Below, one piece after another: positions 1 through 64,000 of a stretch of DNA of 64,000 nucleotides. The translations under genes and the position numbers were made by a program. Each line of letters starts with the position of its first letter. Position 1 is the stretch's first letter. The stretch covers positions 186,001 to 250,000 of the forward strand of contig OY101115.1 of assembly GCA_956465555.1 (NCBI GenBank). The letters are read 5' to 3'. The notes beneath the pieces are model-generated. The model ran no database searches and was not told where the DNA came from. It saw only the letters and a list, made by a program, of their open reading frames with translations. The DNA comes from Nitzschia sp. pyKryTriq1. Its lineage: Eukaryota > Bacillariophyta > Bacillariophyceae > Bacillariales > Bacillariaceae.

Positions 1-1459
1 TTGGACGGATAGCAGTAGTAATAGTAGTAATAACAAACGGACCGAGCGAGCCACCACGGCTCTGACCGAAGACGAAATTTTGGCAGCGCTCGAGGAACAA
101 AATACGGCCAGGCTTCGAGAGATGGTCCAACAAACCTTGGGAGATTCGTACTGTCAGGTCGCCGACGAGCAACGAGGCCAAATGAGATTGCATATTTGGG
201 TCCGACGAAGCATCATGAAAGGCATTAGAGATATTCGAATCTCTGGGGCTAACACTGGTGTCGGAAACATGCTTGCCAACAAGGGTGGTATTGTGGCTAC
301 TCTTTACTACAGAAACACGAGAATCTCGTTCTTGACAGCTCACTTGGCCGCTCATGAAGGCCGGTCGTATTACAAGGCGCGGTGTGACAACATGAAGGCT
401 ATTTTACGGGAATCCAGGACGTTTGGACTCAGCAAAAAGTTTGATGACACCTTGACCGCTCACCACATGTTTGTCTTTGGAGACTTGAACTTCCGAACGG
501 CCTTTGGTTCGGAAAGCAGCAAACATGACGACAATGTCCATCGGGCTAGTGAACTGATCGTTGCCAAGGATTTTGAGAGCTTGTACGTATTCGACGAGCT
601 ACAAGAAGGTTTAGCCTCTGGCCACTTGTTGATGGGTTTTGAAACGCTGCCATGCACGTTTCCGCCGACTTTCAAGGTGGAACGCCGTCCGGGATTTGTC
701 TACAAGGAGCAACGCACGCCAAGCTACACGGATCGTATTCTGTTCAAGTCCGCTCACGGCCTCTCAAAGAATCTAATGCCGCTGGCGTATGAACCCTGTG
801 TGGATTTCATCACCTCTGACCATAAACCCATTCGGGGCGCGTATTCTATCAGACCCAATGACGCCATGGGATTTTTTGATCTGCATGGCGATTTGCACAT
901 TGAATTCCGAAGAATGAGATGCTCGAATCTTCCTTCGGCAGACTCGAACGGGAAATCCGATCCGTATCTCATGTTCATTTGGGACTCGATCGAGCTCCAA
1001 ACGGACAAACGCTCCGTGATGGACAAACTCCGAGAATTTTGGATGGGAAAAAGCTGGCCAAGAACAAGCTTCATTCCCAAAACATTGAACCCGTACTGGA
1101 AAGGGGAGAAGATGCGGTTGTATGCATCCGATACAATCATTGGACACGATGCCATGCTTTTCATCGCGGCTATCGATTATGACGCGGTCGGAAAAGATGA
1201 TTATCTTGGAGGTCTCGCCTTGAACATCCGAGAACTTATCCAAATGAGACGTGGAGAAGCTTTCAAAACTGTCGATATTGATCAGAACTTGACGAGAAAT
1301 GGGAAATCTGCGGGACGAATCAAATGCAAAATCGACATTTCACTCATGCAAAGGACGACGGAAGCGTCTCGCCTCATGGCCCTTGGAAACGCGTTTCGTT
1401 CCTCCAAGAGATTGAATAATTTGCAACCCACCAAATCGAGCAATAATAATTTTGAATAG
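1..1459 (+). CDS. Inositol polyphosphate 5-phosphatase plus C2 domain, 5' part outside window
   Basis: The frame is open from base 2 to the TAG at 1457-1459, so the gene enters from the left edge; the TTG at 80 is not a real start. The visible 485 or so codons hold the C-terminal part of an inositol polyphosphate 5-phosphatase (removes the 5-phosphate from phosphoinositides or inositol phosphates). Seen are TAHLAAHEG, the signature VFGDLNFR, PPTFKVE and RTPSYTDRIL, then SDHKP. A C2 domain follows (SNGKSDPYLM, NPYWKGE), likely for Ca2+ or lipid binding. It aligns without large gaps with the C-terminal third of the receptor-phosphatase at 41419-46014, roughly two-thirds identical by eye, so the missing N-terminus may also be a receptor; that is inference. 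No intron is visible. Confidence 0.9.
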   Translation, partial: WTDSSSNSSNNKRTERATTALTEDEILAALEEQNTARLREMVQQTLGDSYCQVADEQRGQMRLHIWVRRSIMKGIRDIRISGANTGVGNMLANKGGIVATLYYRNTRISFLTAHLAAHEGRSYYKARCDNMKAILRESRTFGLSKKFDDTLTAHHMFVFGDLNFRTAFGSESSKHDDNVHRASELIVAKDFESLYVFDELQEGLASGHLLMGFETLPCTFPPTFKVERRPGFVYKEQRTPSYTDRILFKSAHGLSKNLMPLAYEPCVDFITSDHKPIRGAYSIRPNDAMGFFDLHGDLHIEFRRMRCSNLPSADSNGKSDPYLMFIWDSIELQTDKRSVMDKLREFWMGKSWPRTSFIPKTLNPYWKGEKMRLYASDTIIGHDAMLFIAAIDYDAVGKDDYLGGLALNIRELIQMRRGEAFKTVDIDQNLTRNGKSAGRIKCKIDISLMQRTTEASRLMALGNAFRSSKRLNNLQPTKSSNNNFE

Positions 1460-12855: not shown

Positions 12856-15630
12856 CTAGCAGCAATAAGAGTCGTAGTGGTTGCTCGCTCTGAGACAAAC
12901 TCCACAGAACAACCAGTCGCCAAAGACATCCTCAACACCACCACCACCAACGACACGCAACGACACAGCAGCCTTAGCATTGGTTTTATCTTGATCGGGA
13001 GGATTGGTGTCGTTTGTGACACTCGAAGCGGTCGAGACGGACGAGGCATCGGGCGCGCCGCCAGATGATGGCAGCAGCGAATCATCATCATCATTATTAT
13101 GACGACCACCAAGTAGTCCTCCTACTCCTACTCCTCCTTGATCATGGTGATGTTTTTTCTTTTGCAATTCTTGATAGAGCCAATGCGCATATTCCGATTC
13201 ATGGGTCAACTCCAAGGTGAGTTGGGTGTTGTTGGAATCATGAGTAAAGGGCACTGTCAATTGAAGAGAGGAAGCGGGTTGCATGGAAGGTTGGGCGACC
13301 AATTCTCCCAATCCCAAAGTCATGGAGGATGTCAATCGACAAGCGGAACTTTGCGTTTGATGTTTTTTGGATCGATGAAAGGGTTGTTCAAACAATCGAA
13401 TTTCCAGAGCACACAAATCAAATGAATTGACTTGTTCGGACATTATTTGCCAAGTCATGGCCTGTCTTCTTGATTCGAGAACGCCCCGTTCTTGATTGTA
13501 AAAGAGTTGCGCAATTTCCGTATGCCCATCAAACGTCATGGACAGAGTCCACCGGGACTGTTTGGAAAGACCTGAAATGGAATGTACCTTGATGGAAAGG
13601 ACCGAAGACGAAAAGTCGTGCGGAGGAGCGTCCACGAGAACGACCTCTGTAGCTTGAGGCCGTTGATAAATGGCATCATTGCCAACGCGTGTGCGGACCA
13701 CTAGAGGAAGTGTTGCAGTGACTTGCTGCTGTGGATCGTTATTTGACAAAGATCCTCCTGCTCCTCCTCCAAGTTTATTCTTTTGCTGTTGCTCGAGCTT
13801 TCGTTTTCGTCTTTCCTTTCGCGACAAGGCTTGGTGTAGCTTACTATTGTCCTTGGTGTTGTAAAAGGAATCGTGGCACATTTTGCGCAGAACCATGAAC
13901 ACAATCTTTTGACACGACGTGTCCCAATGCAACAATAGTCCATATTGCATCGACAAGAATCCCAAACGCAATTCAATCATGCTTCTCGTTTCCACAATAG
14001 TAGTAGTATTAGTAGTAGAAGCCGTCGAAGTACAAGTACCTGGCGGAAGTAGGACGGCCTTGGCAGGTCGTTTCTTCACTCCTGCTTCTTCTTCGGAAAC
14101 TTGTACGACAATCTTCATTTTATCCCGTAACTTGTCCAAGCAAGGCTCTTTGCCTCGAGCCGAAATGGCGCTGGCAATGCCGAGTGGTGATTCTCCCTTG
14201 CCCTTGTCCTTTTGCAAGATACAAGAGTCATGGACGTAAAAGGATGGTTCTTGGAGCAAACCTTCCTTGCTGTTGTTGTTATTTTGACTGTTGTTTGCTG
14301 CTTGAGAATGAGAAGAAAGAAGAGATGATATGGGAGTATCGTCCTTTTTGGGTTGATTGGCCGGATTGTATTGGGTATCGTACGCTTCAATCGGAGAGAT
14401 TTTAGAAGGCTTGTTTCGCGAGGATGATGTGAGACGAAGAGGTGGTCTATTTCGTTTCGCATGCATGCGAGTCCGAGTCGAAGAGGCGCTGTTCATAGAG
14501 TACGTTTCGGAAGTGTGGAGAGAACTTTGGGACGAAAGAGTACTCGTGGTCATGTTGGACCCAATCGAATCATCGAGTGAGTACTCATGTTCCAGCGGGG
14601 AAGGCGGCGGAAAGAGAGAAGACGAAGGCGAGGGCAGACTTGAAGTAGCAGCACTGGAAGTGGAACGTTCCACTTGTTCCTTGAGCAAGGCTTCAAAAAA
14701 GTCCTCGTGCAATCGGCAATAGACTTGCTGTTGCTGCATTTCGGCGGCAGTAGCAGTACCATTCCCAGCAGCAGCAGTACCAGAACCAGTACCACCGCTC
14801 ATCCCGCCAGCATGATCATCCTGGCCGTCTTTGGATGATGATGCTTGCAACATCAAGGCTCTTCCAATCACACTTTGGCCACTTCCAATATCTCCATCGC
14901 ATCCAAAGAATTCAATCCCAGACGCAACCCAATCCATCCACTCCTCCTCAGTTTCATCCGTACCGGTACCGGTACCGGTAACAGTGCCAGCTTGACCCTT
15001 GTGGTTGTTGCTTCGTCCCTTGGAATTGGCATGGTTTGGGTTGTTGTTACTGGTAATCGATGGGGATGATCCCGTAATACTCGTAATACTACTACTGCTT
15101 TTGGTTCCCTGCTTGGCCGTTTGGGCCAACCGCAATCGTTGCGAGGGCCCCGAAGACCAGTCCATCATGACTACCGCATTAGCAAGAGCATTAGCATTAG
15201 CATTAGCATGAGCAGTTGCATCCGTCTTTCCATTCTTTCCATGCTTTCCATTCCACAACGGAAGACTCGACATGCTATTGTCCTTTGCGTGCTGGCTCAT
15301 ACTGGTATCTTCTTGTTCTTCTCCTCCTCCTCCTTCCTTTTTGTTGGTAGAAGTAGTAGTAGTCGAAAGCAAGTTACAGGCACTTCGAGCTCGTTTGAGG
15401 AGCATAGATGGAGGCCGGATTCGTCGTCTTCTGCTACTGCCACCACCGGTACCAAAGCTTCCACTCCCGCTCATGCTACTGTGATCGTCACCACCAACAC
15501 CAGCACCACCACCACTACTACCACCCATACTTGCAGCGTCTTCTTGAACACTTCCCAGTGGTTGCGACAAGGATCTTCTCGCGGGCAATCTTCGGCTGTT
15601 CCCACTCGTCCCTCCTGCAGAGGGCGCCAT
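12856..15630 (-). CDS. Large low-complexity protein with C2-like domain
   Basis: Single exon. The frame opens at a GTG, and the first ATG is 15630 (MAPSAGGTSGNSRRL), giving 924 residues. The first 640 residues are mostly disordered (S, G, N, T, A runs, basic patches RSLSQPL and RRRRIRPPS), with short ordered islands such as YCRLHEDFFEALLKEQVE and MIELRLGFLSMQYGLLLHWD. A beta-rich block at about 676-820 (SVLSIKVHSISGLSK, RWTLSMTFDGHTEIAQLFY, LQLTVPFTHDSNNTQLTLEL) looks like a C2 domain with little of the Ca2+-binding Asp set, so calcium-independent lipid or protein binding is likelier. The tail ends in a cysteine-containing stretch. Its role is unknown. Confidence 0.75.
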   Translation of the reverse strand: MAPSAGGTSGNSRRLPARRSLSQPLGSVQEDAASMGGSSGGGAGVGGDDHSSMSGSGSFGTGGGSSRRRRIRPPSMLLKRARSACNLLSTTTTSTNKKEGGGGEEQEDTSMSQHAKDNSMSSLPLWNGKHGKNGKTDATAHANANANALANAVVMMDWSSGPSQRLRLAQTAKQGTKSSSSITSITGSSPSITSNNNPNHANSKGRSNNHKGQAGTVTGTGTGTDETEEEWMDWVASGIEFFGCDGDIGSGQSVIGRALMLQASSSKDGQDDHAGGMSGGTGSGTAAAGNGTATAAEMQQQQVYCRLHEDFFEALLKEQVERSTSSAATSSLPSPSSSLFPPPSPLEHEYSLDDSIGSNMTTSTLSSQSSLHTSETYSMNSASSTRTRMHAKRNRPPLRLTSSSRNKPSKISPIEAYDTQYNPANQPKKDDTPISSLLSSHSQAANNSQNNNNSKEGLLQEPSFYVHDSCILQKDKGKGESPLGIASAISARGKEPCLDKLRDKMKIVVQVSEEEAGVKKRPAKAVLLPPGTCTSTASTTNTTTIVETRSMIELRLGFLSMQYGLLLHWDTSCQKIVFMVLRKMCHDSFYNTKDNSKLHQALSRKERRKRKLEQQQKNKLGGGAGGSLSNNDPQQQVTATLPLVVRTRVGNDAIYQRPQATEVVLVDAPPHDFSSSVLSIKVHSISGLSKQSRWTLSMTFDGHTEIAQLFYNQERGVLESRRQAMTWQIMSEQVNSFDLCALEIRLFEQPFHRSKKHQTQSSACRLTSSMTLGLGELVAQPSMQPASSLQLTVPFTHDSNNTQLTLELTHESEYAHWLYQELQKKKHHHDQGGVGVGGLLGGRHNNDDDDSLLPSSGGAPDASSVSTASSVTNDTNPPDQDKTNAKAAVSLRVVGGGGVEDVFGDWLFCGVCLRASNHYDSYCC
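14960..14982. repeat. TACCGG tandem palindromic array inside a gene
   Basis: Three overlapping TACCGGTA palindromes in tandem lie inside the coding sequence of the C2-like orphan, where they encode an alternating G/T run. They show that this motif also spreads into exons. Confidence 0.6.
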
Positions 15631-16606
15631 TGTTGGATTTGGTTTTGGGTTGGGATTTGGAGGTGGGATGGGATCAGACACAGACAGATAGAATGACAGA
15701 TAATTCGAGTTGATACTGTAGACACCACGAGTCAGTCAGTTATAAAGGTAGGGAAGAAAGGAATGTTCTTTTACCCTCAGTATATGCTGCTGCTGTTGTT
15801 GTTGTTGACACAAACGGACGCGGATGGATGACCCCTCCTCTCCGTCCAACAACAACTTTCTCCTTCTTTCTTTCTTTTGCTTGGGTGGGTGCGGGTTGGG
15901 CGGGTTTTGGGTGCCGCACATGTTGTTGTGGAAGCCAAACGCCAAGTCGTCGTCTGTCTCTACTGGACTGTACCAAATGTACTGTATCTCTGAGGGTGAG
16001 AGTCTCCGTGTTCCCTTCCTCGTACAGTACATATTATTCGTATAAGTACTGTGGTATGTGTGTAGTCTACATCTATCATCGCGGGGTTTCGCCAAAGACA
16101 ATTTCATGTGACGTCCTGTCTCAACGGATGGAGGCATAGAATGGTGTGTCGTAGACGACGCCGCTCATTCCCAAGAGGCGGTCTGAAATTTGTTATATAT
16201 TCTACAGTCCTGAAGAATATAGATAAAAGGAATTTGAACCGATCGTCCAACGCATGCCACCGCTCTATTGATTCCTTCGTCGTTGTGACTCGAATAAGTC
16301 AAACGAAACAGGCAAGATTGGATATTATTTTATTTTTTGATTTCTTCGAATACAAGGGTAATCCAAATCTTTGGGGGAGGGGGCGGAGTGCGGGTACGAG
16401 TAAAATACTGAATACTGTATGATATGGTACATAGCGAGGCGCGGCTCGTTGTTCCGTGACTTTTCTGTGCATCATCATCAGCATCATCGCATCATCTAAT
16501 TTCACCTCTCTACTCTTTTCATTCATTCATTCATTCATTCATCCTCTCGCTTGTCTCCAAAGTCTAGTAGGTCTAGATAGAGAAGAACATTGCCCATAGA
16601 AGAGTT

Positions 16607-16666
<60 letters not shown>

Positions 16667-16735
16667 CTCGACAAACAGGACAGACAGTGGCGCAAGATTG
16701 TATCCTGCGCACACAATAAAACACAGAAGCACATC
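15631..16735. other. Divergent promoter region
   Basis: Shared upstream region of the minus-strand C2-like gene and the plus-strand orphan. No gene seen. It includes (ATTC)n near 16518-16541 and the dinucleotide array described separately. Confidence 0.6.
16609..16666. repeat. (TG)n(AG)n compound microsatellite
   Basis: About 15 TG units followed directly by about 13 AG units, roughly 70 bp upstream of the ATG at 16736. It probably lies in the 5' UTR or promoter, and its length may vary between alleles. Confidence 0.9.
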
Positions 16736-18733
16736 ATGAGCGGCGGCAAAACTGTCACTGCGACAGCAACAACAACAACGGAAACGGAAACGTCCACGAA
16801 TGGAGGATCATTTCGGAATTTGGTCCAATCCTTATTGTTTTCCGGTGGTGGTGCCAAGACGGCGACGACGACGGCGACGGCGACGAATGATGGTGAGGAT
16901 ATTCTTACGACTGCAAGTGCTACAAGAAGCAGCAAGAGAAAACGATTCTGGAAAAGAACAACCAGCACCAGCACCACTTCTACAACATCGACATCGACAT
17001 CAACATCGACATGTATCGTGGTATCCGCCACGACGACGAGTGATGCTGAGAATGATCAGTCTTCATCAGTTCCAACAAGAAGAACAGCACCAGCACCGGT
17101 AGCAACAGCACAGGCAGCATCAGCAACAGCCAAAGCATCCTGTTTGGACGAACCATCAACGTCAGTCCCGCGATACAGCATCCGAAGTACCACGCAGGAA
17201 GATGCTGGGGATCCAACAGCAACAGTGGCAGCAGGAGCAGGAGCGGTAGGGAGTCTCTGTTATGACATCATTGCGCCGACTTTTGGCTCGGAGGTGGCTG
17301 GTGCTGCTGCTGCTGGTGGTGGTGGTGGTGGTGCTGTTTCTTCTTGGGAATCCAATAATACTGATGATTCGGCGTGGCGACTACCTCCAATACTACTACT
17401 ACAAAATGAGAAGGAGGATGAAGAAGAAGAAGAAGATGATGATGATGATGATGAAGATGATGCATCACAACCACCAGCATCGTTTCTACTTCCTTCGACG
17501 TATCCACCATCCCATGAGCAACGACCAGCACTGACGCCCCTGGAATGGACCAAACTCGTCTCCATTCCCAAAGAAGGAACTCTACAATATTACATCTATC
17601 AGCAACAGCAACAACAGCAGCAATTCAGGAGTAACCATCATCCCTGGACAATAATGCGAAAAGAGGAAGAGGAAGATAATGATGATGATTCTCATCAGGA
17701 TGATTTTGCTGCTGCTGCTGCTGCTGCTGCTGCTGAGAATGAGAATGATGATCGAATGCTCGTATTGTATCGATGGATCCAATCTCGTAGGGCCATGGGA
17801 TGGGTACGATCCAGTTTGGCGGAGCTGCATGAACGATTGCAACAAGGATATAGTGAGGCCGCCAAATGTCATGCTCAGGCCCGACGACAACGACGACGGG
17901 CCGATTGGGACAGTCATGACAGCCAAGATCATCATCGTCTTCAAGACAAGAATGACAACAACAACAACAGCAACAACAACAATAACGACAGCGTCAACAA
18001 GGACAACGACACGAATGACAACAATAGTCTTTCTCAGTTGCTGCAATGGCGACATCGATTGGCAGGATTATGGTGTATGTATGCTCATATTCTATTGGAA
18101 GTCGGAATTCATTCTTCTAAGCATCATCATCATCATCGTCATACACATCATCATCATCATCATCATCATCAGTCCGAACCACAAAAGAGAAGTAGTAGTC
18201 AAGCAACCAAAGATTCTTACACGACCAAGAATAAGTCGAAGAAACGACGACGCGGCACATCTGCTGCTGCTGCGGCCATCAGCAGCAGGAGCAGCAACAG
18301 CAACAATGATGCCCCTGCTTTGGAGACGACTACTCGTACAACTGCTGCTGCTACTGCTACTTCGGAACTACGAATTCAAGACGTCCTGAGTCATGTGATT
18401 CTCATTCTGAAAACGGCACAAACATGTCCTTTGGTGGGAAATCATAAATATATCGTCTTGGCATTGGGCCGAATGATGGTTGTTGGATCGGTTCTTTTGG
18501 AACAACAACAACGACAACAAAATGCGGCACTCCTATCGGTACGAAGAATAGAGTCGACATTCATGACGAATACGACTACTACGATCCTGTCTGAGGATGA
18601 TTCTTCCAAACCAGCATTGATCCAAGCCATATCAGACGCGATTTCCTCTTGTTGGGACGCCATGGAAATTTGTCAAGGCAAGCTACTGGTACCGCAACGA
18701 TCAGAGGAAGAATCAGCATCCTCATCTCAACAT

Positions 18734-18765
<32 letters not shown>

Positions 18766-19435
18766 ACAACACCAGCGTGCTCACGCAGAAGCGTCCATGG
18801 ACTTTGTCTCGCACTATATTCATGAAACAACAAGATCATCATCATCATCATCATCATCATCGACCTGTCGTGGTGCGCGGTCGTCGTCCTCGTCGTCCCG
18901 GACTAAAATGGCCAACACAATTATTCCCAAGGAAACGCCCATTTCTGATCTTGTTCTCAAAGCCGAAATGAGGGCCGTTCTCGACCTGCCAGGGGAATTT
19001 CTTCTTCTCCTTCTTCGAGAAGAAGAAGGAGAAGGAGAAGAACACACCACCACGATGGTGTTTTGCGATCGAAATGCGGCACGAGCCCTTTGTCAGGAAG
19101 TCAATCGATGGAGTCGTCTCAAAGAGAAACTGGGTCAGCGCCTGCTTGCCACGGTAACTCCTACTACTATTACTTCCTCTACCGGTAATAGTAGCATTGG
19201 CAGTAGTAGTAGTAGTAGTCACCAGCAACAACAAAAACACACGGCTGCAGCGACCCCCTGGCTGGAAAATTTCGTCTTTTATCGCACCAGGGACTGTCCT
19301 TCGGATGTACCTCCCCCGAATGCCAAATGGAGAGACGTGGAATACGCTCCTACTGGTGATGGTGAAGACCGAGGGGGTTTGCCGGGAGGGGGAGGAGGAG
19401 CATCCGCCGATGCCAGAGTCGAATGGAAGTGGTGA
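16736..19435 (+). CDS. Large homopolymer-rich orphan protein
   Basis: Single exon; the ATG at 16736 (MSGGKTVTATAT) gives 899 residues. An apparent longer frame upstream only reads the TG/AG microsatellite. Runs of T, S, D, A, Q, N and H interrupt the chain. Ordered helical segments include LTPLEWTKLVSIPKEGTLQY, MLVLYRWIQSRRAMGWVRSS, LRIQDVLSHVILILKTAQTC, YIVLALGRMMVVGSVLL and a C-terminal block with DLVLKAEMRAVLDLPGEFLL and AARALCQEVNRWSRLKEKLG. I recognise no known domain. Stretches between the repeats look conserved-type protein rather than random, so a genuine gene is likely. Confidence 0.75.
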
Positions 19436-32431: not shown

Positions 32432-34660
32432 ATGCCTCCCGCTGCCGCCGCCAGCAGTTCCAATACGAATCATCATCAGCATCCATCCTCCTTACTTCCC
32501 CCCGATCCGTTTACTCCCTCAACGATTGAATATGATTTTGAAGATTATGCCTTGAAACATGGCATTCCCGAAACCTTGGACCCCTTGCCGTATCGCAAGG
32601 CAGGATCGGTCTTTGCCACGGGAGAAGAAGCGGAACCCATCTTGACCAGTGCCAAGCATGATCCACGATTGCGGACCGTGGTGTGTCGCCATTGGTTACG
32701 GGATTTGTGTATGAAAGGGAGCGCGTGCGAGTAAGTATAGTAATGGAAACAGCAGCAACAACAGCAACAACAAGAAGAAGCAGTAGTGGTAGTGGTAGTG
32801 TCTCACACATTGCATATCATTGTATATTGGTTTACGTATAGATTCTTGCACATGTACGATTTATCCAAAATGCCACTGTGTCGACATGGGGAACGATGCA
32901 AGGTCCACGATTGTCCCTTTCGTCACATTAGTGAAGCGAATCGGCTGGAATGTGTCTTTTATTCGCAAGGATTTTGTATCCATGGTCCCTTTTGTCGATA
33001 CAAACATGTACGACGAGAACGCATTGATTTGCCCGCCGTGGCCGATTTTACCTTGGGATTGTCCCAAATGCAAGCCGCGTCGGGGACGGGCGGAGGTGCA
33101 GGAGGAGGGGCCAAGGAAGTCACACGACGACCGGCACCCAAACCCAATGAATTTTTTAAAATTTCCTTGTGTAAACATTTCATGCAAGGAGAATGTCCGT
33201 TTGGAGATGGTTGTCATTTTGCTCATGGAGAACATGGTAAGTATTATTACCACCCGAGTACTAAATGGATCATGGATGATTGATGGAATCTTGCTTTATA
33301 CGTATCCGGAATGATGCCGCGTCTGATGTATTACAAATACTCACAACTTACAACTCACATCATCTTTATTACTATAGAATTACGAAACTTTCCTCGTCCC
33401 GACAAACACAGTCACCATCATGATGAAGGTGGAGACGATCATAATAATGACGATTCGGAACTAATCTCCGATAATATCTTTTCCAATCACCCAACAGCAA
33501 CAACAACAACAACGGTAGATTACTTTCAAGGTGGTGCCAGTGGGGGAGGAAAGCCATCCCCCATCTTGGAACCAGAAGAGGCACATTTCTTCATTGTGTG
33601 TGCGGCGACGCAAACGGATCTGGCCATTTCCACCTTTCAAGCGGAATGGTATGTCCAACGAAAACATGCCGAACAAATGAATGAAGCATTTAAAAAAGAA
33701 GGAGGCCATCAGGGAAAGAACAACAACAACAACAGCAACAATCAAGTCATGTTGTTCTTTACCGTCAGTGATTCACGGCATATTCAAGGTGCCGCCCTCA
33801 TGACATCCGAGGCAGAATTTCAAGAAGGAGTTGTCGACAATGAGAATTCTCCCGAAGCCTTTGCCTATCGTCTCGGAGTGGAATGGTATCGAACGACCGA
33901 ATTTCCCATTGCCACGGCCTTGGAGGCCGCTCCGGATCTTTTACTTCCGACGACTCAAACGCAATTTTGTCAAGACATGTCTCCAGCGACAGGAGAGAAA
34001 CTTATGAAAGCCTTATGGAATTCGCCGTTAGTGACACTCTACGAGAGCTGGTCTGCGGACGATGAAGAAGATCCACCGGCACAAGAGGCATTGTTGACGG
34101 ACTTTCGATGCCCTCCATTGGATGAAATCCCTTGGCCCGTCTTGCCAGGTCCCGGCTTTATCTTTGGATGTTCCAGTGATACCATGGACGAATGCCTGGG
34201 ACGGGGATTGTTGGGATTGCCGGCCCATATGAAAGCGGCGGCTCAATGGATTGTGCCGGGAAGTACAGTCTTTTTGTTCAATGTGACGGACCGACTGTTG
34301 TTTGGAATCTTTGAAGCCTTGACACCTGCCGCGATGAATTTGGAACCTACCGCCTTTTCCAAAAATCCCAATGCCAAAGAATCGCCCTTTCCCGTTCAAA
34401 TTCGAGTCCGCGTGGGTTTGGAATGCCCTCCCCTCGAAGACACGGATCCCATTCTCAATGATATCTTAAGAAGTCGAGGGAGTGGACGGATTGGACCACT
34501 TACCTTTGCTCAAACGGAAGCGATTGCATCCTTGCTGGCCAATGAGTGTGGGGCGTTGGCGTATATGATGGATTATCAACAAGCAGCATGGGAAGGTGTC
34601 CCCGTAAATCCACCTCCTATTGCCCTGCCACCACGAAAGATTGTCAAAAAGACGGCGTAG
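32432..34660 (+). CDS. CPSF30-like protein: four CCCH fingers, YTH domain, DCD domain
   Basis: Exons 32432-32730, 32842-33236 and 33378-34660; introns 32731-32841 and 33237-33377, all GTAAGT/TAG. 658 residues. Four CCCH zinc fingers (about 85-103, 113-128, 137-155, 210-228) resemble the 30-kDa cleavage and polyadenylation factor subunit, which binds the poly(A) signal. A YTH domain spans about 300-455 (HFFIVCAATQTDL, QAEWYVQR, VMLFFTVSDSRHIQGAALM, RLGVEWYRTTEFP); plant CPSF30-L and apicomplexan CPSF30 also carry YTH, there reading m6A. A DCD domain follows at about 490-585 (GFIFGCSSDTMDECLGRGLL, PGSTVFLFNV, LLFGIFEAL). The first cage Trp (W322) is present; the second aromatic is not evident. 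I infer nuclear mRNA 3'-end processing. Confidence 0.88.
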
Positions 34661-41418: not shown

Positions 41419-44400
41419 CTAATGATGCGCCGGCAATTCCCTCGACGATCCGACCACGTCGTTCTGGCTACTATTACCGACGAACCTAGTAGATATCCAA
41501 TTGCGGGTGAGCCCGCCACGGATCATTCCCAAGGCCGAAGAGCGTCGTTTGCGATTTCCTGATGGCGCGTCGGGGGCGGGCCGGTGGCGCTTGACGCGAA
41601 GCGTAAATTTGATGCAACCCGCATCTAGACCGTCTCGCAGCAGCCGCCGTTCAAAGGGGAGACTGCGATCTTCCATTTCCCCCGCGGCGTCAATGGTCGC
41701 GACGCAGTTCATCATGGTAGATATCAATTCAGCAACATTGAAAACTGTGGACCCCAAGATTTCATGCCGCCGCCTCACCTTGTCGTAGTTGATGACAGCC
41801 AGGAACAGCATACCGTCTGGTTGGAGTTTAGTCTTCTTCAAACTCAAGGCTATTTCCTCGCCCTTCCAGTGAGGATTCACAGTTTTGGACATGAACGATG
41901 TCCGAGGCCACCGTGAAGTTCCTGAAAATAAGGAGCGGAGGAAATCCCAAGCGGCTACTTGTTCCGACTGGAACGGAGCGGCATCCCAGAGAATCATAAC
42001 ATATGGATCCGATTTCCCGCTGGCCGTGTTGGTCACCGGCAAATTGGAACAACGGATCTTGGTAAAGTCGAAATGAATGTCGCCATCGATATGAATACTA
42101 TCCAGAACAGCATTGGGCGTAAGAGAGAAAGCACCCCGGATTGGCTTGTGGTCGGACGTGATAAAGTCGCTACATGCTTCGTACGAAAGCGCCTTTAGGT
42201 GCTCACGCAAGCCTGGAGATGTATGGAAAAGAATTCGATCAGTGTAGCTTGGAATTCGTTGTTCCTTGTAGGTGTAGCCCGAATCCCGTTCTACCTTGAA
42301 CGTCGGAGGGAAAGGGCAAGGTAGTGTCTCGAAGCCAGCCAAAAAGTCTTCCTTCTTGAGACCTTGCTGGAGCTCATCCAATTCATAGAGGCTTGGATAA
42401 GATGCCGACTCGATGAGGTTCCTGGTCAACTCCACTTTCTCTTCGTGCGAGTGTTCATTTTCAAATCGCGTCCGAAAGTTCAAGTCACCAAGGAAGAACG
42501 TGTAATGACTGGAGGTTGGTACGTCAAACTTGGCCGACGCAGAGATATCAAAGGTCTTGGCTTCTCGGAGAATCGAGCGAATGTTGTCGCATCGGGCCTT
42601 GTAGTGCGACTCTCCTTCGTGTGCTGCTAAATGAGCAGTGACAAAGGAAATGCGAGTCTTTTGAAAGTATACCGTGCCCACAATTCCGCCCTTGTTGGCC
42701 AAGACGTTTCCAATCCCGGTATTGGCTCCGCTGATCTTGACTTCGGTGATAGCCTGTGCAATCTTCCTTTTCGCCCACAAATGAAGTCGCATTTGCCCAC
42801 GTCGTTCGTCGGCGATTTGGTAATAACTATCACCCAAGACTTCTTGGACCATTTCCCGAAGTTGGGCCGTGTTTGCCTCTTCTAGGGCATTTAGGACTTC
42901 TTCTTCGGTTATTTCCTTCTTTGCGTTATTTGCGCTGCCGGTCGATTCTTTGACACTCGACGTCCATGTTGCTTCTTGCATACCAATCGCTATCAAATCA
43001 AACGTTTGCATTTTATCCAGCATGTATTTGGGCTCGTCTCCGGTCTCGTCGTCGTCTGGAAGTGCCTTGATTCGATCGGAGCATCCACCTGGAGGAATCC
43101 ACGCTTCTAGCGATTCGGGGGTTGGCCCTTTGTTTCCCATGTTGGCCGAGCATACCAAAATCGAAAGTGGCCTGGGTACATGATGACGAATTCCTCCCAG
43201 CGTCGTCGCATGTTCGGGATTGTCATCCTCCTCCTGTACTGCTTCATCCTCGTTGATCAACGAGGATTTAGTAGGGCCTATAGTGGACGACAGCATTCCT
43301 GGTTTGTACGGTTCGGCTTTCCTCGACACTAACAACTTGGGTATCACGTAAATTCCCATGGCAGTCAAGGTATCCAAAGAAAACACCAAACTCATGATGG
43401 CTGCGCTGGTGCTAGAGGGAAATATGTCTTGTATGTAGAACACAGTGCACACCCCACGAAGTATGATAAAGAGAGAGTGCGAGTATACCATGACCGCCAA
43501 ACTCTTTGACTCGTTGAGCTGCGCCATAATGTCTCTTGATTGAAAGGCCAAAAAGGCGGCCAAAATGAGCAAGATGGCTTGCCAAGCAAAGGCGACATAT
43601 CTCCACACGGAGGTCTCAGCAGAACAACGGACATCGGATTCCACCAACGTGATCGATTCAGAACGCCCTCCGTCGTCGACAGATGTCGTCGTTTTCAGGG
43701 TGCGGTTTTCCTCGATGGTAGGGGGATCGATGAGAGTCCAAGCAATCAAATATGCCACAACACAGGCCACAACCCCGGCCACTTGACAAAGCATAGTATG
43801 TCGATTCAGTTGAATTCGACGTTGTGTCTTGGTATAGGATCGGATCAACTGATTGATTTTGGCGGTCTTGACCAATACTGGCACCAACTCAATGGTGTAG
43901 CCCAAAACGATGAGCCAGATTGACGCTAGACAATGCGATTTTTGGGGTGTTGTGGTATAAAAGACTGCTCCAATCGAGACCATGCAAAAGCCAAGCAAGA
44001 TGAGTTGCAGAAAGATGGGCTGTGCAAATACCATGGACTTGGTGTGCCGAAATCGGAATACCGCAAAGAATCCCAAAAATGCAATACAAGCCACGACACC
44101 CCCGATTGCGCGGGCCATGATCATGTACCAGGCCGAGTAGTCGCTTCGTTCCACCAAGATTCTTGGATATCCCGTAGGAATAAAGCTCTGGAGTTGTTTC
44201 TGATTCTCTGAGACCCATATGCAGACAGACTCTCGAATCGATCCAATGGGGTCGTACACCTTTCCTAGTCGCTCCTGATGCTTATTTTTAAGCTTCCACC
44301 GGCGAATGATGGAAAGAAGATCCAAATTGGTGACTTGGATGTGTTTGAGAAATTCGTATGCTGGAGATTGGTCCACTTCGGGCAGAGACGTGGTATGTTC

Positions 44401-46014
44401 TTCCAAGGCAATGGCTGTGATTCGTTGCAAGGATTGGACTCTTGTACCACAACCTGCTACACTACTGTTCCCGCGCCGCACCTCGAAGGAATCGCTGCAT
44501 CGAGCTGCGGCATCTGGTCGCGCCGCCAGACATTCCAGAGTAGCGAGTGGAAGGGTAACCGGCAACATTTCGTACTCTTCATCACCGAGGAACTCAAAGT
44601 GCATGGGCTCTGGTTCGTACCACTGGAGAATAATATGATTCCCCGTGGCATTGGCTGCCCTGTAGATTTGCTCAATGTGTGCCGACGAATATCCTCCCAC
44701 GGGAGGGACGGGTCCATCGCGGGCGAGTCCCACAATGTCGTTCCAATAGAGTTGGGCATCCAAGGAGACGGACCAAGTACATTCCGGTGTCACGATATGC
44801 CCTGTACAAGTTGTGGGATTCAGAGTACAATTGTTGGCATCCGTGGCGGCAAAGTATCCATTGTACAAGCCGCCACTTTCAAAATACAAGTCCCGTTCCT
44901 CTGGTACTGGAAACCGCGCCGCGGTCGATGACGGTTCCGAACATGCCGATTCGGACACTTGTTCACAATACTCCGCCCATGTCATGGGACGTAAGAAGGT
45001 TTCTGCCAAGAGTTGCCGATTCGCTTCACCCGCCAGTCCAAACCAAATGGTAAATTGGGGGAACTCTCGTGCCGTACGCGATGGAATATACAATCCAGAA
45101 CGTCCCAAAAGTCCATTCCCCGTCGGAGGTTGAATAGTATTGTTTGCAATCAAGGGAACGTACTCCGTGGCTTGACCCTGCCATACCTCCGGTAGAACAT
45201 CCACACAGGGTGCTGCGATGGAAGAACAATCGTCTCTTTTGCGTTGATTGACAGTCGTTGTTTCTCCTGCCACAATATTGGCTCGCTGGAGTGCCTCAAA
45301 AGGATAGGCCACGGGAGAAAACAGCCAATCGATATTCTCACTGTAAAAGCTAGCCAAGGGTGTATCGGACGAAGTCAATCCGACCGTTGTAGGGACATCC
45401 ATGAATTCGGATAACACAATTTGATAAATCCAAGACAAGATAATACTGCTCTCCCAATTGGACTGGTGAATGCGAACTTCCGGATACACATCATCAAATG
45501 GAGAGCGCACACAAGTATTCGTATCACTGTCACCTTCATCATCATCAACAGCAGCAGCATCCTGCTCGCCGTCCTTCTGTCCCCAAAGCGCTCGTTTATC
45601 ATCCGAGTTGCAGACTCGCTTTTTGGCAGGAAGAAGAGATCCGGCTGATGATGCTGGTGAGTTGGATTCGTCTCCTTCTGATCCTTGAAGTGACCTCCGA
45701 GTTTGCGGCTGCTGCTGCTGCGGCTGCGGATTTTCTTGCAGAGTACGGAAACATCCTTGTTGAAATGGATTCGAACAAGTCTTGCTTGCCGGCAAGCATA
45801 CGGTCGTTTTCATTTGATACACCGCTTGGCACTCTTCATTGGTTTCACAGGAAACCGAGCCTTGAACTGGCTGGAGAAGAAGAATCAGCAGCATCAAGAT
45901 AATATTATTCAGCACAAGAAACATTCCTGCTCGTAACGACATCAGCGCAGCAGTTTTTGGCATCATGTTGGTGGTGGTGGTGGTGGTGGTGGTGTCGAAC
46001 AGCGAGAACTTCAT
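41419..46014 (-). CDS. Receptor-phosphatase fusion: OpuAC-like ectodomain, class C 7TM, inositol 5-phosphatase, C2
   Basis: Single exon, ATG at 46014, 1531 residues. A signal peptide/anchor (about 26-50) precedes a short Cys-rich part, then a type 2 periplasmic-binding region (about 175-615) resembling glycine-betaine-binding OpuAC proteins: NWESSIILSWIYQIVLSEFM, LLGRSGLYIPSRT, NHIILQWYEPEPMHFEF, CIWVSENQKQL. Seven helices follow (about 630-652, 664-686, 695-716, 741-762, 804-824, 838-860, 870-894) with class C receptor marks FRFRHTKSMVFAQP and LVKTAKINQLI. The 5-phosphatase spans about 950-1300 (GMQEATW, FFLGDLNFR, RIPSYTDRIL, SDHKP, all catalytic signatures kept) and a C2 domain about 1305-1475 (GKSDPYVM, NPHWKGE). 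I infer a plasma-membrane receptor whose cytosolic arm hydrolyses phosphoinositides. Confidence 0.92.
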   Translation of the reverse strand: MKFSLFDTTTTTTTTNMMPKTAALMSLRAGMFLVLNNIILMLLILLLQPVQGSVSCETNEECQAVYQMKTTVCLPASKTCSNPFQQGCFRTLQENPQPQQQQPQTRRSLQGSEGDESNSPASSAGSLLPAKKRVCNSDDKRALWGQKDGEQDAAAVDDDEGDSDTNTCVRSPFDDVYPEVRIHQSNWESSIILSWIYQIVLSEFMDVPTTVGLTSSDTPLASFYSENIDWLFSPVAYPFEALQRANIVAGETTTVNQRKRDDCSSIAAPCVDVLPEVWQGQATEYVPLIANNTIQPPTGNGLLGRSGLYIPSRTAREFPQFTIWFGLAGEANRQLLAETFLRPMTWAEYCEQVSESACSEPSSTAARFPVPEERDLYFESGGLYNGYFAATDANNCTLNPTTCTGHIVTPECTWSVSLDAQLYWNDIVGLARDGPVPPVGGYSSAHIEQIYRAANATGNHIILQWYEPEPMHFEFLGDEEYEMLPVTLPLATLECLAARPDAAARCSDSFEVRRGNSSVAGCGTRVQSLQRITAIALEEHTTSLPEVDQSPAYEFLKHIQVTNLDLLSIIRRWKLKNKHQERLGKVYDPIGSIRESVCIWVSENQKQLQSFIPTGYPRILVERSDYSAWYMIMARAIGGVVACIAFLGFFAVFRFRHTKSMVFAQPIFLQLILLGFCMVSIGAVFYTTTPQKSHCLASIWLIVLGYTIELVPVLVKTAKINQLIRSYTKTQRRIQLNRHTMLCQVAGVVACVVAYLIAWTLIDPPTIEENRTLKTTTSVDDGGRSESITLVESDVRCSAETSVWRYVAFAWQAILLILAAFLAFQSRDIMAQLNESKSLAVMVYSHSLFIILRGVCTVFYIQDIFPSSTSAAIMSLVFSLDTLTAMGIYVIPKLLVSRKAEPYKPGMLSSTIGPTKSSLINEDEAVQEEDDNPEHATTLGGIRHHVPRPLSILVCSANMGNKGPTPESLEAWIPPGGCSDRIKALPDDDETGDEPKYMLDKMQTFDLIAIGMQEATWTSSVKESTGSANNAKKEITEEEVLNALEEANTAQLREMVQEVLGDSYYQIADERRGQMRLHLWAKRKIAQAITEVKISGANTGIGNVLANKGGIVGTVYFQKTRISFVTAHLAAHEGESHYKARCDNIRSILREAKTFDISASAKFDVPTSSHYTFFLGDLNFRTRFENEHSHEEKVELTRNLIESASYPSLYELDELQQGLKKEDFLAGFETLPCPFPPTFKVERDSGYTYKEQRIPSYTDRILFHTSPGLREHLKALSYEACSDFITSDHKPIRGAFSLTPNAVLDSIHIDGDIHFDFTKIRCSNLPVTNTASGKSDPYVMILWDAAPFQSEQVAAWDFLRSLFSGTSRWPRTSFMSKTVNPHWKGEEIALSLKKTKLQPDGMLFLAVINYDKVRRRHEILGSTVFNVAELISTMMNCVATIDAAGEMEDRSLPFERRLLRDGLDAGCIKFTLRVKRHRPAPDAPSGNRKRRSSALGMIRGGLTRNWISTRFVGNSSQNDVVGSSRELPAHH

Positions 46015-60494: not shown

Positions 60495-63400
60495 ATGGCG
60501 AAGCCGGACGACCAATCGGGCTCGTCCAGCAGATCTGCATCATCATCATTATCAGCAGCAGCAGCAGCAGCAGAGAGTGATGATGATGTTGGTGAGGATG
60601 GCGACGAGGATGATACGCATAAGCGCACGGATGCTGATGATGGCGAAAAAGAGGCGACAGAGGATGCTGTTGATGATGATGATCATGATGATGATGATGG
60701 TGGAAGTATTAATGGCTTGGGACATGGTACGCAAGATGACGATGATGATTCTTCATCGGATAATACAGATCCAAGCAAAGTAGCAACGAATTTGAAAACA
60801 GCTCTCGAACAGCTTGATCTATCGACCGGGAAAATATTGGCATCGTTTTCCTCCTACGATGAAGCATTTGCACGTGTCAGGCACACGAGCAAAAATTTTC
60901 AGTCGTTCCGGGCTGGAATCGACAACAACGTGCACGGACGCGCAAAATCTTCTGTGGGCTACTTTTGGAGGCACGCTGGCTCAAACAAGATACCGCCAAA
61001 CTCGCGGCGAGAGACTGGACTTGCTGGAATTGAACAGCTTGATCTATGGACCGGAACTGTGCTGGCATCTTTTTCCTCCTATGAAGAAGCGTTTGAACAT
61101 TTCCGCATAACCAGCACGAACTTCCTGATCTTCAGGACTGGAATCTACAACAACATTAGAGGACGCTCAAAATCCTCGTTGGGCTACTTTTGGAGGCACG
61201 CTGGCTCAAACAAGTTGCCCTATAGCTTTAAGCGTGTTTCAGATGGCAGCGATTCTTCAGGGAAAGATGACGATCGGTATCAGCTAGAACCACCCAAGAC
61301 TACCGTTGCAGGCACATCCGCTAGGTCACCTGCTAGCAGTAAAAACGGAATAAAGCTCACTGGAACTGATCAGCTTGATTGTGATCAGGATGATGAGAGC
61401 GAAAGCGAAAGCCAAGACGATCAAGACCAAAAGATCCCAGCCAAACTTAGTATCTTTCGTGGTTCACCCTACGAAGAAGTTGATGATGGGGATTTTGTCA
61501 GCGCCGAAGTACGAGAACCCTTGTTTGAAGAATTCCACAACTTGTTGGCTCCTGTTTCCCAATCGAAATCATCGACGGTTTCCTTTTCTAGGCGCCGTAA
61601 CGGGATGGAAAAGCCGTCGCCCGCAGCCATTGCAAAGCTTGGCTACAAGATGGCCTACGCCATGGTCACTGCCAAGGAACAAATCTCTCTTACGGGAATA
61701 GCCTACAGCCCTGAATGGCTGGACTCGCAACGCATTCGAGGAAACGTCTCCATTCCTGGACTGAACGCATCCATGATATTGCTTGGCTTACGACAAGAAC
61801 GTTTGTGTCGAGCCGACGTGGCAGTACTCATTCGACTGTCCAAGGAGCTTGGAGTTGCGGGGATCGTCCAAAAGGCCTTGGGCGAGTGGAATTGGAACGA
61901 AGAATTTCCAGAATTGTCGTCTTTGTCGTGTCATTTTTCGTACAAGTATGACGGCCGTCTAGCCGCCCTGAAATGTCAAATATTTGTTGCACGAACCTAT
62001 GAATGCATGACCCTGCTGGATTACCATCCTAGCGACGACGACGACGAGGGGATAAAGATGAAACTAAAGGCATGCCTTCAAATCATGCAAGTCAGTCTAA
62101 CGGGAGAAAGCATTGACTTGAAGGACACCGGAATCAACGACGCCATCGAAGTGAGAAACAAAACCTCTGCTGGATATTTTTCGCGCAAACACGAATCTAG
62201 CCAACCTCCGGAACTCTTTATGATACACAACCGTGGATTTGAGAAACCAAGAAAGAAATCGGGCGCAGCTGCTAGGCCTCCTAATGTCCGAAAGAGAGGC
62301 GGGCAGAAAGACCCCGTTGCTGTGGAGCAGCTTGATTTGTGTACCGGAAAGGTTCTGGCATCTTACGCGAGTATGGCAGCTGCCAATGCCAGCTTGGGCC
62401 GATATAGTCATGGCGGCATCAGCGACGTAGTCAGGGGGAGAACCAAGTCCACAGCGGGATATTTCTGGCGGCGAGCTGGCTCACAAGTCTTGCCAGATGG
62501 GTTGGAGCGTGATGATGCGGACGATGGTGATGCTTCTTTATCGGCCACCGAAGAAAATAATGCCGACGACCACCTTGAAGAAGTCGAGACTTCTGCTGCA
62601 GACGATGAAACAGCTGCTAGGCCTCCTAATGTCCGAAAGAGAGGCGGGCAGAAAGCCTCCGTTGCTGTGGAGCAGCTTGATTTGTCTACCGGAAAGGTTA
62701 TGGCATCCTACGCGAGTATGGCAGCTGCCAACGCCAGCTTGGGCCGATATAGTCATGGCGGCATCAGCGACGTAGTCAGGGGGAGAACCAAGTCCACAGC
62801 GGGATATTTCTGGCGGCGAGCTGGCTCACAAGTCTTGCCAGATGGGTTGGAGCGTGATGATGCGGACGGTGATGATGCTTCTTTATCGGCCACCGAAGAA
62901 AATAATGCCGACGACCACCTTGAAGAAGTCGAGACTTCTGCTGCAGACGATGAAACAGCTGCTAGGCCTCCTATTGTCCGAAAGAGAGGCGGGCAGAAAG
63001 CCTCCGTTGCTGTGGAGCAGCTTGATTTGTGTACCGGAAAGGTTCTGGCATCTTACGCGAGTATGGCAGCTGCCAATGCCAGCTTGGGCCGATATAGTCA
63101 TGGCGGCATCAGCGACGTAGTCAGGGGGAGAACCAAGTCCACAGCGGGATATTTCTGGCGGCGAGCTGGCTCACAAGTCTTGCCAGATGGCTTGGAGCGT
63201 GATGATGCGGACGATGATGATGCTTCTTTATCGGCCACCGAAGAAAATAATGCCGACGACCACCTTGAAGAAGTCGAGACTTCTGCGGCAGACGATGAAA
63301 CAGCTGCTAGGCCTCCTAATGTCCGAAAGAGAGGCGGGCAGAAAGCCTCCGTTGCTGTGGAGCAGCTTGATTTGTGTACCGGAAAGGTTCTGGCATCTTA

Positions 63401-64000
63401 CGCGAGTATGGCAGCTGCCAACGCCAGCTTAGGCCGAAATAGTCATGGCAGCATCAGCGACGTAGTCAGGGGGAAAACCAAGTCCACAGCGGGATATTTC
63501 TGGCGGCGAGCTGGCTCACAAGTCTTGCCAGATGGCTTGGAGCGTGATGATGCGGACGGTGATGATGCGTCTCTAGCGGCCGCCAAAGAAAATAATGCCG
63601 ACGACCGGCAAGTAAACCCAAGAGTGCAACTTCCCCTCCAGCTATCGCAATCCTCCGCAGAGAAGTTGCCACAAGAGGTGAACGAGTTGCGGTACGTCTC
63701 TCCCAAGAGTAGCTCATCACGAAAGAGTGCAAGTGGACCTCCCGATCGATCTACCACGTCGGGAGAGTCAGCCGGAAAGGCAGTGGCATCTTGCACGAGC
63801 GTCTTGCCCGACAATGCTGCCGAGTTCCCATACGGCTTGCTTGAGGGCGACGATGATCATGATAATAAGAATACTGATAACAATGAAGCAGAAGTCAAAC
63901 CAGCGGCTGCAGCGGGACAAGTGCCAGTACTACACGCTGAGTCGCCATCCGATGATGAAGAATCATTGGAATCCGCCCCTGCTGCAAAAAAGTTGCCACA
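60495..64000 (+). CDS. Giant protein of NUMOD1/IENR1-like modules, 3' end outside window
   Basis: An ATG at 60495 (MAKPDDQSGSSSRSAS) opens a frame that stays open for 1168 codons to the window end. After an acidic D/E-rich head come two related modules (from residues about 105 and 180): EQLDLSTGKILASFSSYDEA ... GRAKSSVGYFWRHAGS. A middle part of unknown fold follows (about 360-540), ending in a half module (TSAGYFSRKHES). From 62268 (residue 592) there are four nearly identical 115-residue units, each VEQLDLCTGKVLASYASMAA ... GRTKSTAGYFWRRAGS, with basic RPPNVRKRGGQK before and acidic linkers after. The module pattern (D-x-TGK-x-x-AS-x-x-S-x-x-A...GxxKSxxGYFW) matches NUMOD1/IENR1 DNA-binding repeats of homing endonucleases. 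No nuclease motif is seen. DNA binding is inferred. Confidence 0.85.
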   Translation, partial: MAKPDDQSGSSSRSASSSLSAAAAAAESDDDVGEDGDEDDTHKRTDADDGEKEATEDAVDDDDHDDDDGGSINGLGHGTQDDDDDSSSDNTDPSKVATNLKTALEQLDLSTGKILASFSSYDEAFARVRHTSKNFQSFRAGIDNNVHGRAKSSVGYFWRHAGSNKIPPNSRRETGLAGIEQLDLWTGTVLASFSSYEEAFEHFRITSTNFLIFRTGIYNNIRGRSKSSLGYFWRHAGSNKLPYSFKRVSDGSDSSGKDDDRYQLEPPKTTVAGTSARSPASSKNGIKLTGTDQLDCDQDDESESESQDDQDQKIPAKLSIFRGSPYEEVDDGDFVSAEVREPLFEEFHNLLAPVSQSKSSTVSFSRRRNGMEKPSPAAIAKLGYKMAYAMVTAKEQISLTGIAYSPEWLDSQRIRGNVSIPGLNASMILLGLRQERLCRADVAVLIRLSKELGVAGIVQKALGEWNWNEEFPELSSLSCHFSYKYDGRLAALKCQIFVARTYECMTLLDYHPSDDDDEGIKMKLKACLQIMQVSLTGESIDLKDTGINDAIEVRNKTSAGYFSRKHESSQPPELFMIHNRGFEKPRKKSGAAARPPNVRKRGGQKDPVAVEQLDLCTGKVLASYASMAAANASLGRYSHGGISDVVRGRTKSTAGYFWRRAGSQVLPDGLERDDADDGDASLSATEENNADDHLEEVETSAADDETAARPPNVRKRGGQKASVAVEQLDLSTGKVMASYASMAAANASLGRYSHGGISDVVRGRTKSTAGYFWRRAGSQVLPDGLERDDADGDDASLSATEENNADDHLEEVETSAADDETAARPPIVRKRGGQKASVAVEQLDLCTGKVLASYASMAAANASLGRYSHGGISDVVRGRTKSTAGYFWRRAGSQVLPDGLERDDADDDDASLSATEENNADDHLEEVETSAADDETAARPPNVRKRGGQKASVAVEQLDLCTGKVLASYASMAAANASLGRNSHGSISDVVRGKTKSTAGYFWRRAGSQVLPDGLERDDADGDDASLAAAKENNADDRQVNPRVQLPLQLSQSSAEKLPQEVNELRYVSPKSSSSRKSASGPPDRSTTSGESAGKAVASCTSVLPDNAAEFPYGLLEGDDDHDNKNTDNNEAEVKPAAAAGQVPVLHAESPSDDEESLESAPAAKKLP
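62268..63610 (+). repeat. Four 345-bp in-frame coding repeats
   Basis: Units start at 62268, 62613, 62958 and 63303, exact period 345 bp (115 codons), differing at only a handful of positions; the fourth degrades after about 63600. Their near-identity at silent sites shows recent tandem expansion or gene conversion. Confidence 0.93.

Follow-up and report, generated by a model that had tools for sequence, protein, structure and literature searches.

The window, a stretch of 64,000 nucleotides from the diatom Nitzschia sp. pyKryTriq1, carries on its reverse strand an uninterrupted ATG-to-stop frame of 1531 codons. Its product consists, from the N- to the C-terminus, of a hydrophobic leader, an ectodomain of ~450 residues, a class C seven-helix (7TM) domain, an inositol 5-phosphatase and a C2 domain (Table 1). 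The first-pass annotation had claimed a single frame joining a receptor to an enzyme in an alga, and both points stand: the same layout recurs in the single open frame of a paralogue, and the host is a diatom with eight silicon-transporter matches, seven of them at E below 1e-260, in a genome of 40.65 Mb. A Kyte-Doolittle scan of the protein with a 19-residue window finds a single N-terminal hydrophobic stretch at residues 29-47 and then exactly seven, all within residues 637-891. The small Cys-rich segment that precedes the binding domain (residues 56-88) ends in C.NPF..GC and no family was found for it; the pattern is also present in the paralogue L010 and, by eye, in the non-fused receptors L011 and L013.

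Table 1. Features of the receptor-phosphatase gene and of its paralogue, in positions of the window.
Feature	Position	Strand	Basis
Whole receptor-phosphatase coding frame	41419..46014	(-)	1531 aa plus stop; open reading frame, Pfam, paralogue of the same layout
Probable signal peptide, N-terminal hydrophobic stretch, residues 29-47	45874..45930	(-)	Kyte-Doolittle scan
Small Cys-rich segment, residues 56-88	45751..45849	(-)	cysteines common to the paralogue
Ectodomain related to OpuAC/DmpX-type substrate-binding proteins, residues 165-620	44155..45522	(-)	family profile, Pfam on paralogues, hhalign
W187, position of DmpX Trp35	45454..45456	(-)	aromatic in 7/7 diatom rows with a letter
W278, position of DmpX Trp84	45181..45183	(-)	aromatic in 9/9 rows with a letter
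W414, position of DmpX Trp152	44773..44775	(-)	aromatic in 9/9 rows with a letter; register less certain
Y466, position of DmpX Trp202	44617..44619	(-)	aromatic in 11/11 rows with a letter
Class C 7TM (7tm_3), residues 630-893, IPK motif at end	43336..44127	(-)	Pfam; GABA-B2 match
Cytoplasmic linker, residues 899-950, poorly conserved	43165..43320	(-)	24% identity to the paralogue
Inositol polyphosphate 5-phosphatase domain, residues 951-1300, catalytic motifs present	42115..43164	(-)	Pfam, PDB matches, alignments
C2 domain, residues 1318-1431	41722..42063	(-)	Pfam; tail resembles two other diatom 5-phosphatases
3' end of paralogue L010 (remainder of phosphatase, C2, stop)	1..1459	(+)	gene begins upstream of the window

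Several other features were noted in the window and on its contig. On the forward strand a single frame at 33311-34660 encodes a YTH domain (m6A reader) and, after it, a DCD domain (development and cell death), a pairing that is to our knowledge unusual, and the frame at 47197-48459 matches the Sulf_transp family (PF04143) in two stretches (E 6e-23). A reverse-strand frame at 38819-40009 matches the Atg22-like vacuole effluxer family (E 3e-13), and a near-identical (95-97%) repeat array with a unit of ~345 bases occupies 62266-63606, within a long open reading frame that leaves the end of the window. Two 941-codon frames (12856-15681 and 16610-19435) match no Pfam family, and the idea that they form an inverted pair was rejected, as they show no mutual match in a blastn self-comparison. 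Four silicon-transporter matches lie within ~41 kb of each other on the contig of the window (G000:C1:275839-317295), and a fifth is found on it at 79892-81523.

The paralogue L010 is a stop-to-stop frame of 1569 codons on the opposite strand, 40 kb from the window gene (G000:C1:182750-187459), in which Pfam recognises 7tm_3, phosphatase and C2. It is 49% identical to the window protein, with 49.3% identity in the ectodomain, 48.5% in the 7TM domain, 24.4% in the linker, 62.7% in the phosphatase, the highest of all segments, and 41.5% in C2. As the frame was read directly from eukaryotic DNA, an artefact in which two adjacent genes are read as a single frame is conceivable. However, the fusion is repeated in the single frame of L010, so a two-gene artefact is unlikely and the layout is more than chance. 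In addition, L010 has no Met from residue 976, at the end of TM7, to residue 1080, in the GMQE motif, and thus no separate ATG for the enzyme before the first catalytic motif, and the linker frame is open in both copies. We consider the artefact very improbable, and the evidence from the paralogue argues strongly for one gene at this locus.

The class C assignment of the receptor part, made in the first-pass annotation, is borne out by a 7tm_3 match at residues 630-893 (100 bits against the curated cut-off of 33.5, E 2e-28), by the seven hydrophobic stretches and by a search of PDB sequences, in which GABA-B receptor subunit 2 is the best solved relative. The enzyme part matches Exo_endo_phos2 at residues 976-1293 (164.6 bits against a cut-off of 27, E 5e-48), and its matches among PDB sequences include SHIP2, INPP5B, SHIP1 and the 72 kDa 5-phosphatase. 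All the 5-phosphatase signatures that had been claimed are found: SAN (N958), GMQE (E1014), TAHLAAH (H1128, H1132), GDLNFR (D1177, N1179), PSYTDR (D1259) and SDHKP (D1288, H1289), where the residues in brackets are those that we take to be catalytic. Since these motifs are kept and the phosphatase is the part best conserved between the window protein and L010, we infer that it is a putatively active enzyme. The C2 domain, likewise expected, scores above its Pfam cut-off (residues 1318-1431, 30.9 bits against 22, E 3e-7). In an alignment read by eye both C2 loops have Asn/His in the window protein where L010 has Asp, at positions that we take to be Ca2+ ligands, which hints that the C2 domains of the two copies are perhaps unequal in calcium dependence.

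The ectodomain had been described as OpuAC-like, and this holds for the family but not for the window protein taken alone. Its N-terminal 620 residues match no Pfam family at E<=5, and the ectodomain by itself matches none at E<=10, hence there is no OpuAC (PF04069) match. NCBIfam likewise gave no matches for seven ectodomains, that of the window included, and a six-frame OpuAC search of the whole genome found none. Among eight family members, Pfam OpuAC is matched at E<=10 by three (L012 at 6.9e-5, L010 at 0.013 and L011 at 0.077), with L012 the sole member above the curated cut-off (23.0 bits against 21.2); on whole frames the match of L010 weakens to 0.32 and L011 gives none at E<=1. The profile A1, built from eight diatom ectodomains of which some are incomplete, was searched against 177,635 distinct PDB sequences and gave a single match at E<=10, the bacterial protein RnDmpX (7YLE), with an E value of 3e-4 for the whole sequence and 0.014 for the best single stretch.

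The relation was also approached from the bacterial side, with a profile of 88 betaine-type binding proteins, of which eight came from plasmids and the others were the best 80 of 566 relatives; five of the 88 frames exceed 400 residues owing to crude trimming. The plasmid proteins were taken from 28 records retrieved by tblastn with the L012 and L013 ectodomains and were used as seeds only, the tblastn matches against plasmids being insignificant (best E 0.2). All 14 records found with L013 are from Rhizobium, Paracoccus or Sinorhizobium, while 12 of the 14 found with L012 are alphaproteobacterial and the remaining two are unrelated genes of Gordonia and Streptomyces. Of 12 diatom proteins this profile recovers six at E<=10 in a search space of 20,000, headed by L012 (7.6e-6), L013 (6.5e-4), L020 (5.6e-3) and L011 (0.011), but neither the window protein nor L010. 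Among 600 shuffled sequences the lowest E value was 5.3. Comparison of the diatom family (11 of the 12 rows retained by the filter) with the 88 bacterial proteins in hhalign gave a score of 85.2, with an E value of 7.9e-11 for this single comparison. The aligned region begins at the NWES strand, reaches the C-terminal helices and spans about 280 columns. The maximum over 150 column shuffles was 26.7, and the reversed profile scored 14.5. Because the score is far above all these shuffles, and because the family profile matches 7YLE, homology of the ectodomain to OpuAC/DmpX-type binding proteins, a bilobed family, is well supported through the profile of its relatives. The window ectodomain is ~150 residues longer than mature bacterial binding proteins. 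Viral contigs gave 115 pattern matches, among which there was no relative.

In the complex of RnDmpX with DMSP (7YLE) the cage is formed by Trp35, Trp84, Trp152 and Trp202, with other contacts from Thr64, Glu113, Ala153 and Tyr200, and replacement of Tyr200 by Ala or Phe abolishes DMSP binding, as described in PMC10030565. All four cage positions align with aromatic residues in the window protein (W187, W278, W414 and Y466), and the counts in Table 1 come from 12 diatom rows; since the rows of L015 and L018 are nearly the same, some of these observations are dependent. The register of W414 is uncertain, as an insert lies just before it and a smaller sequence set placed W346 (in RPxTW) at the position of Trp152; the W346 column is Trp in seven of the eight rows of A1. 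A hypergeometric value of 3e-8 for the shared aromatics was set aside, since the alignment itself uses those columns, and the shuffle control was preferred. The aromatic cage suggests a cationic methylated ligand for the ectodomain.

Other pocket residues differ. DmpX Tyr200 is aligned with Q464, a position that is Tyr in L010, and Glu113 with S306, while L308 replaces a conserved Trp next to the Glu113 position. Positions 306 and 308 are S and L in the two fused receptors, whereas among A1's six non-fused rows 306 is E in four and I in two, and 308 is W in all. Because Q464 and S306 depart from Tyr200 and Glu113, DMSP itself may not be the true ligand. The same substitutions could mean that the betaine-binding fold, with its pocket altered, senses some other small molecule such as an amino acid, an amine or a peptide, which would leave the receptor-phosphatase mechanism unchanged. 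We think this unlikely, given that the four cage columns are aromatic in all diatom rows with a letter there, and continue with a betaine-class ligand.

Searched with the window protein, the genome yields 31 matches, among which L010 is the full paralogue. Seven further receptors combine this ectodomain with a 7TM domain (L011, L012, L013, L014, L020/L016, L021/L018 and L022/L015, the last three paired from neighbouring frames), and no phosphatase match is found at their loci. The genome holds 40 matches to 7tm_3, some genes giving two, and only two places also carry a phosphatase match; seven other large 7tm_3 frames, of which L122 holds a partial 7TM domain, lack any Pfam enzyme domain C-terminal to the 7TM at E<=0.01. 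The class C receptors of this diatom vary in their ectodomains (loci L117, L119, L120, L121 and L123), with ANF_receptor, Peripla_BP_4/1, SBP_bac_8/1, the 5'-nucleotidase C-terminal domain and the OpuAC type among them. Two non-fused receptors of the family form an inverted pair ~10 kb apart (G000:C6 145316-146620 on the forward and 156928-158256 on the reverse strand), with very short branches and apparently of recent duplication.

On the enzyme side, the nearest phosphatase relatives after L010 are L017 and L019, at 44% and 47% identity to the window protein. Their tails are C2-like and resemble that of the window protein (hhalign 84%, with E 7.6e-6 for this one comparison). Neither locus has a 7tm_3 match, and the frames read lack a hydrophobic helix, the L019 frame being cut at the edge of its locus. 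The 7TM tree groups both fused receptors with support of 85/88, under the 95/80 that the program stars, and the phosphatase tree, weak and with long branches, is consistent with the pairing of the window protein and L010. In the simplest history, a diatom receptor would have fused once with a phosphatase-C2 enzyme, likewise of the diatom, and the fused gene would later have been duplicated. Two independent fusions were considered and are not favoured by the trees, with the same reservation about the phosphatase tree.

As read from its sequence, the window gene is thus predicted to encode a single-gene receptor enzyme that joins a betaine-class binding-type ectodomain to a 7TM domain, a 5-phosphatase and C2. 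The full reading, in which these parts work together as an osmolyte-responsive receptor enzyme with a tethered phosphatase, we put at a probability of about 0.55. The ectodomain would be extracellular and two-lobed and would close on a small cationic zwitterion within the cage of four aromatic residues, the candidate ligands being quaternary ammonium or tertiary sulfonium osmolytes, for example betaine or DMSP. The 7TM core would relay this change inward and alter the activity or the orientation of the 5-phosphatase at the plasma membrane, where the C2 domain would aid docking. The phosphatase would then take the 5-phosphate off PI(4,5)P2, PI(3,4,5)P3 or Ins(1,4,5)P3. Matches to PIP5K at three places in the genome, together with PI-PLC matches, indicate that the substrate pathway exists, so that the alga can both synthesise and consume such lipids.

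Gating of the tethered phosphatase by such a ligand, for which the first-pass annotation had named glycine betaine, proline or DMSP, is the step that this arrangement would suggest. In its strongest form, a dissolved betaine or sulfonium osmolyte (glycine betaine, DMSP or similar), acting on a captured domain of bacterial type, would directly switch phosphoinositide hydrolysis at the plasma membrane within one protein and without a G protein; this we offer tentatively and regard as somewhat unlikely. The genome also contains a single G-alpha match of almost full length, interrupted by two in-frame stops that could reflect an intron, and therefore ordinary G-protein signalling is possible. The protein could then be mainly a conventional G-protein-coupled class C receptor, perhaps dimeric with another subunit, with an ungated phosphatase that is constitutive or serves local control of PI(4,5)P2. 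Such a role would fit the scarcity of the enzyme among class C receptors (two places among 40 matches, with none in the seven other frames tested) and a linker that is poorly conserved between the copies. On the other hand, the fusion persists in both copies, with the enzyme more conserved between them than any other part, and we judge this role distinctly unlikely. The osmolyte-responsive receptor enzyme remains our preferred reading.

The first-pass annotation had cited GPCR-PIPK proteins as a precedent for a receptor fused to an enzyme; that such fusions are known holds, but closer precedents are the GPCR-INPP bigrams (PMC5784254) and class C receptors with an OpuAC domain (PMC3251606), as far as the texts of these papers describe them. 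GPCR-INPP bigrams are, according to the accounts in PMC5784254 and PMC6033456, found in oomycetes and outside them in Nannochloropsis gaditana alone. Like the window protein they are stramenopile proteins in which a 7TM domain is followed by an inositol polyphosphate phosphatase, and the open frame described here has this same layout, with the seven-helix receptor N-terminal to the phosphatase. In contrast, no class C type or binding-protein ectodomain is named for them in the main text of PMC5784254, where 'class C', 'glutamate' and 'ectodomain' each occur 0 times; the comparison is by description only. PMC12716839 names GPCR-bigrams solely in its reference list.

The pairing of an OpuAC (PF04069) N-terminus with a glutamate-family class C 7TM domain is described for six sequences of Allomyces macrogynus in PMC3251606; these receptors share this pairing with the window protein but are fungal, and the passages on them mention no C-terminal enzyme. 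RnDmpX resembles the window ectodomain in profile homology over most of the domain and in the four aromatic cage positions. It differs from the window protein in that its Tyr200 and Glu113 are not kept there and in being part of a bacterial ABC importer, without 7TM domain or enzyme, as presented in PMC10030565. Seven diatom 7tm_3 receptors with a periplasmic-binding-type N-terminus were reported in 2013 (PMC3727952), but these N-termini are labelled there as PBP1 or as like components of ABC sugar transporters, unlike the OpuAC type found here, and the C-termini are said to resemble no known proteins, unlike the phosphatase-C2 part of the window protein. In Plasmodiophora brassicae 7tm_3 is joined with SBP_bac_1 or PBP_like_2 domains, as the text of PMC4815078 has it. 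In searches of open-licence literature, and in main-text passages of selected papers, we found no account of an OpuAC-7tm_3-IPPc-C2 protein or of a diatom GPCR-INPP.

The window protein thus resembles, on present comparison and in layout, a GPCR-INPP bigram, from which its sensor and its C2 domain set it apart, and it would extend receptor-phosphatase fusions to a diatom. How receptor-enzyme bigrams signal is posed as an open question in the text of PMC6033456, and the fused phosphatase, as a built-in readout, could help to settle it. The window gene and its family also provide concrete candidates for betaine or DMSP receptors in diatoms, with named pocket residues. Phytoplankton and bacteria exchange DMSP and betaines as major currencies, and we know of no receptor for either that is established in diatoms. 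If the strongest form of the reading is true, the window protein would be a one-molecule receptor for compounds exchanged between algae and marine bacteria.
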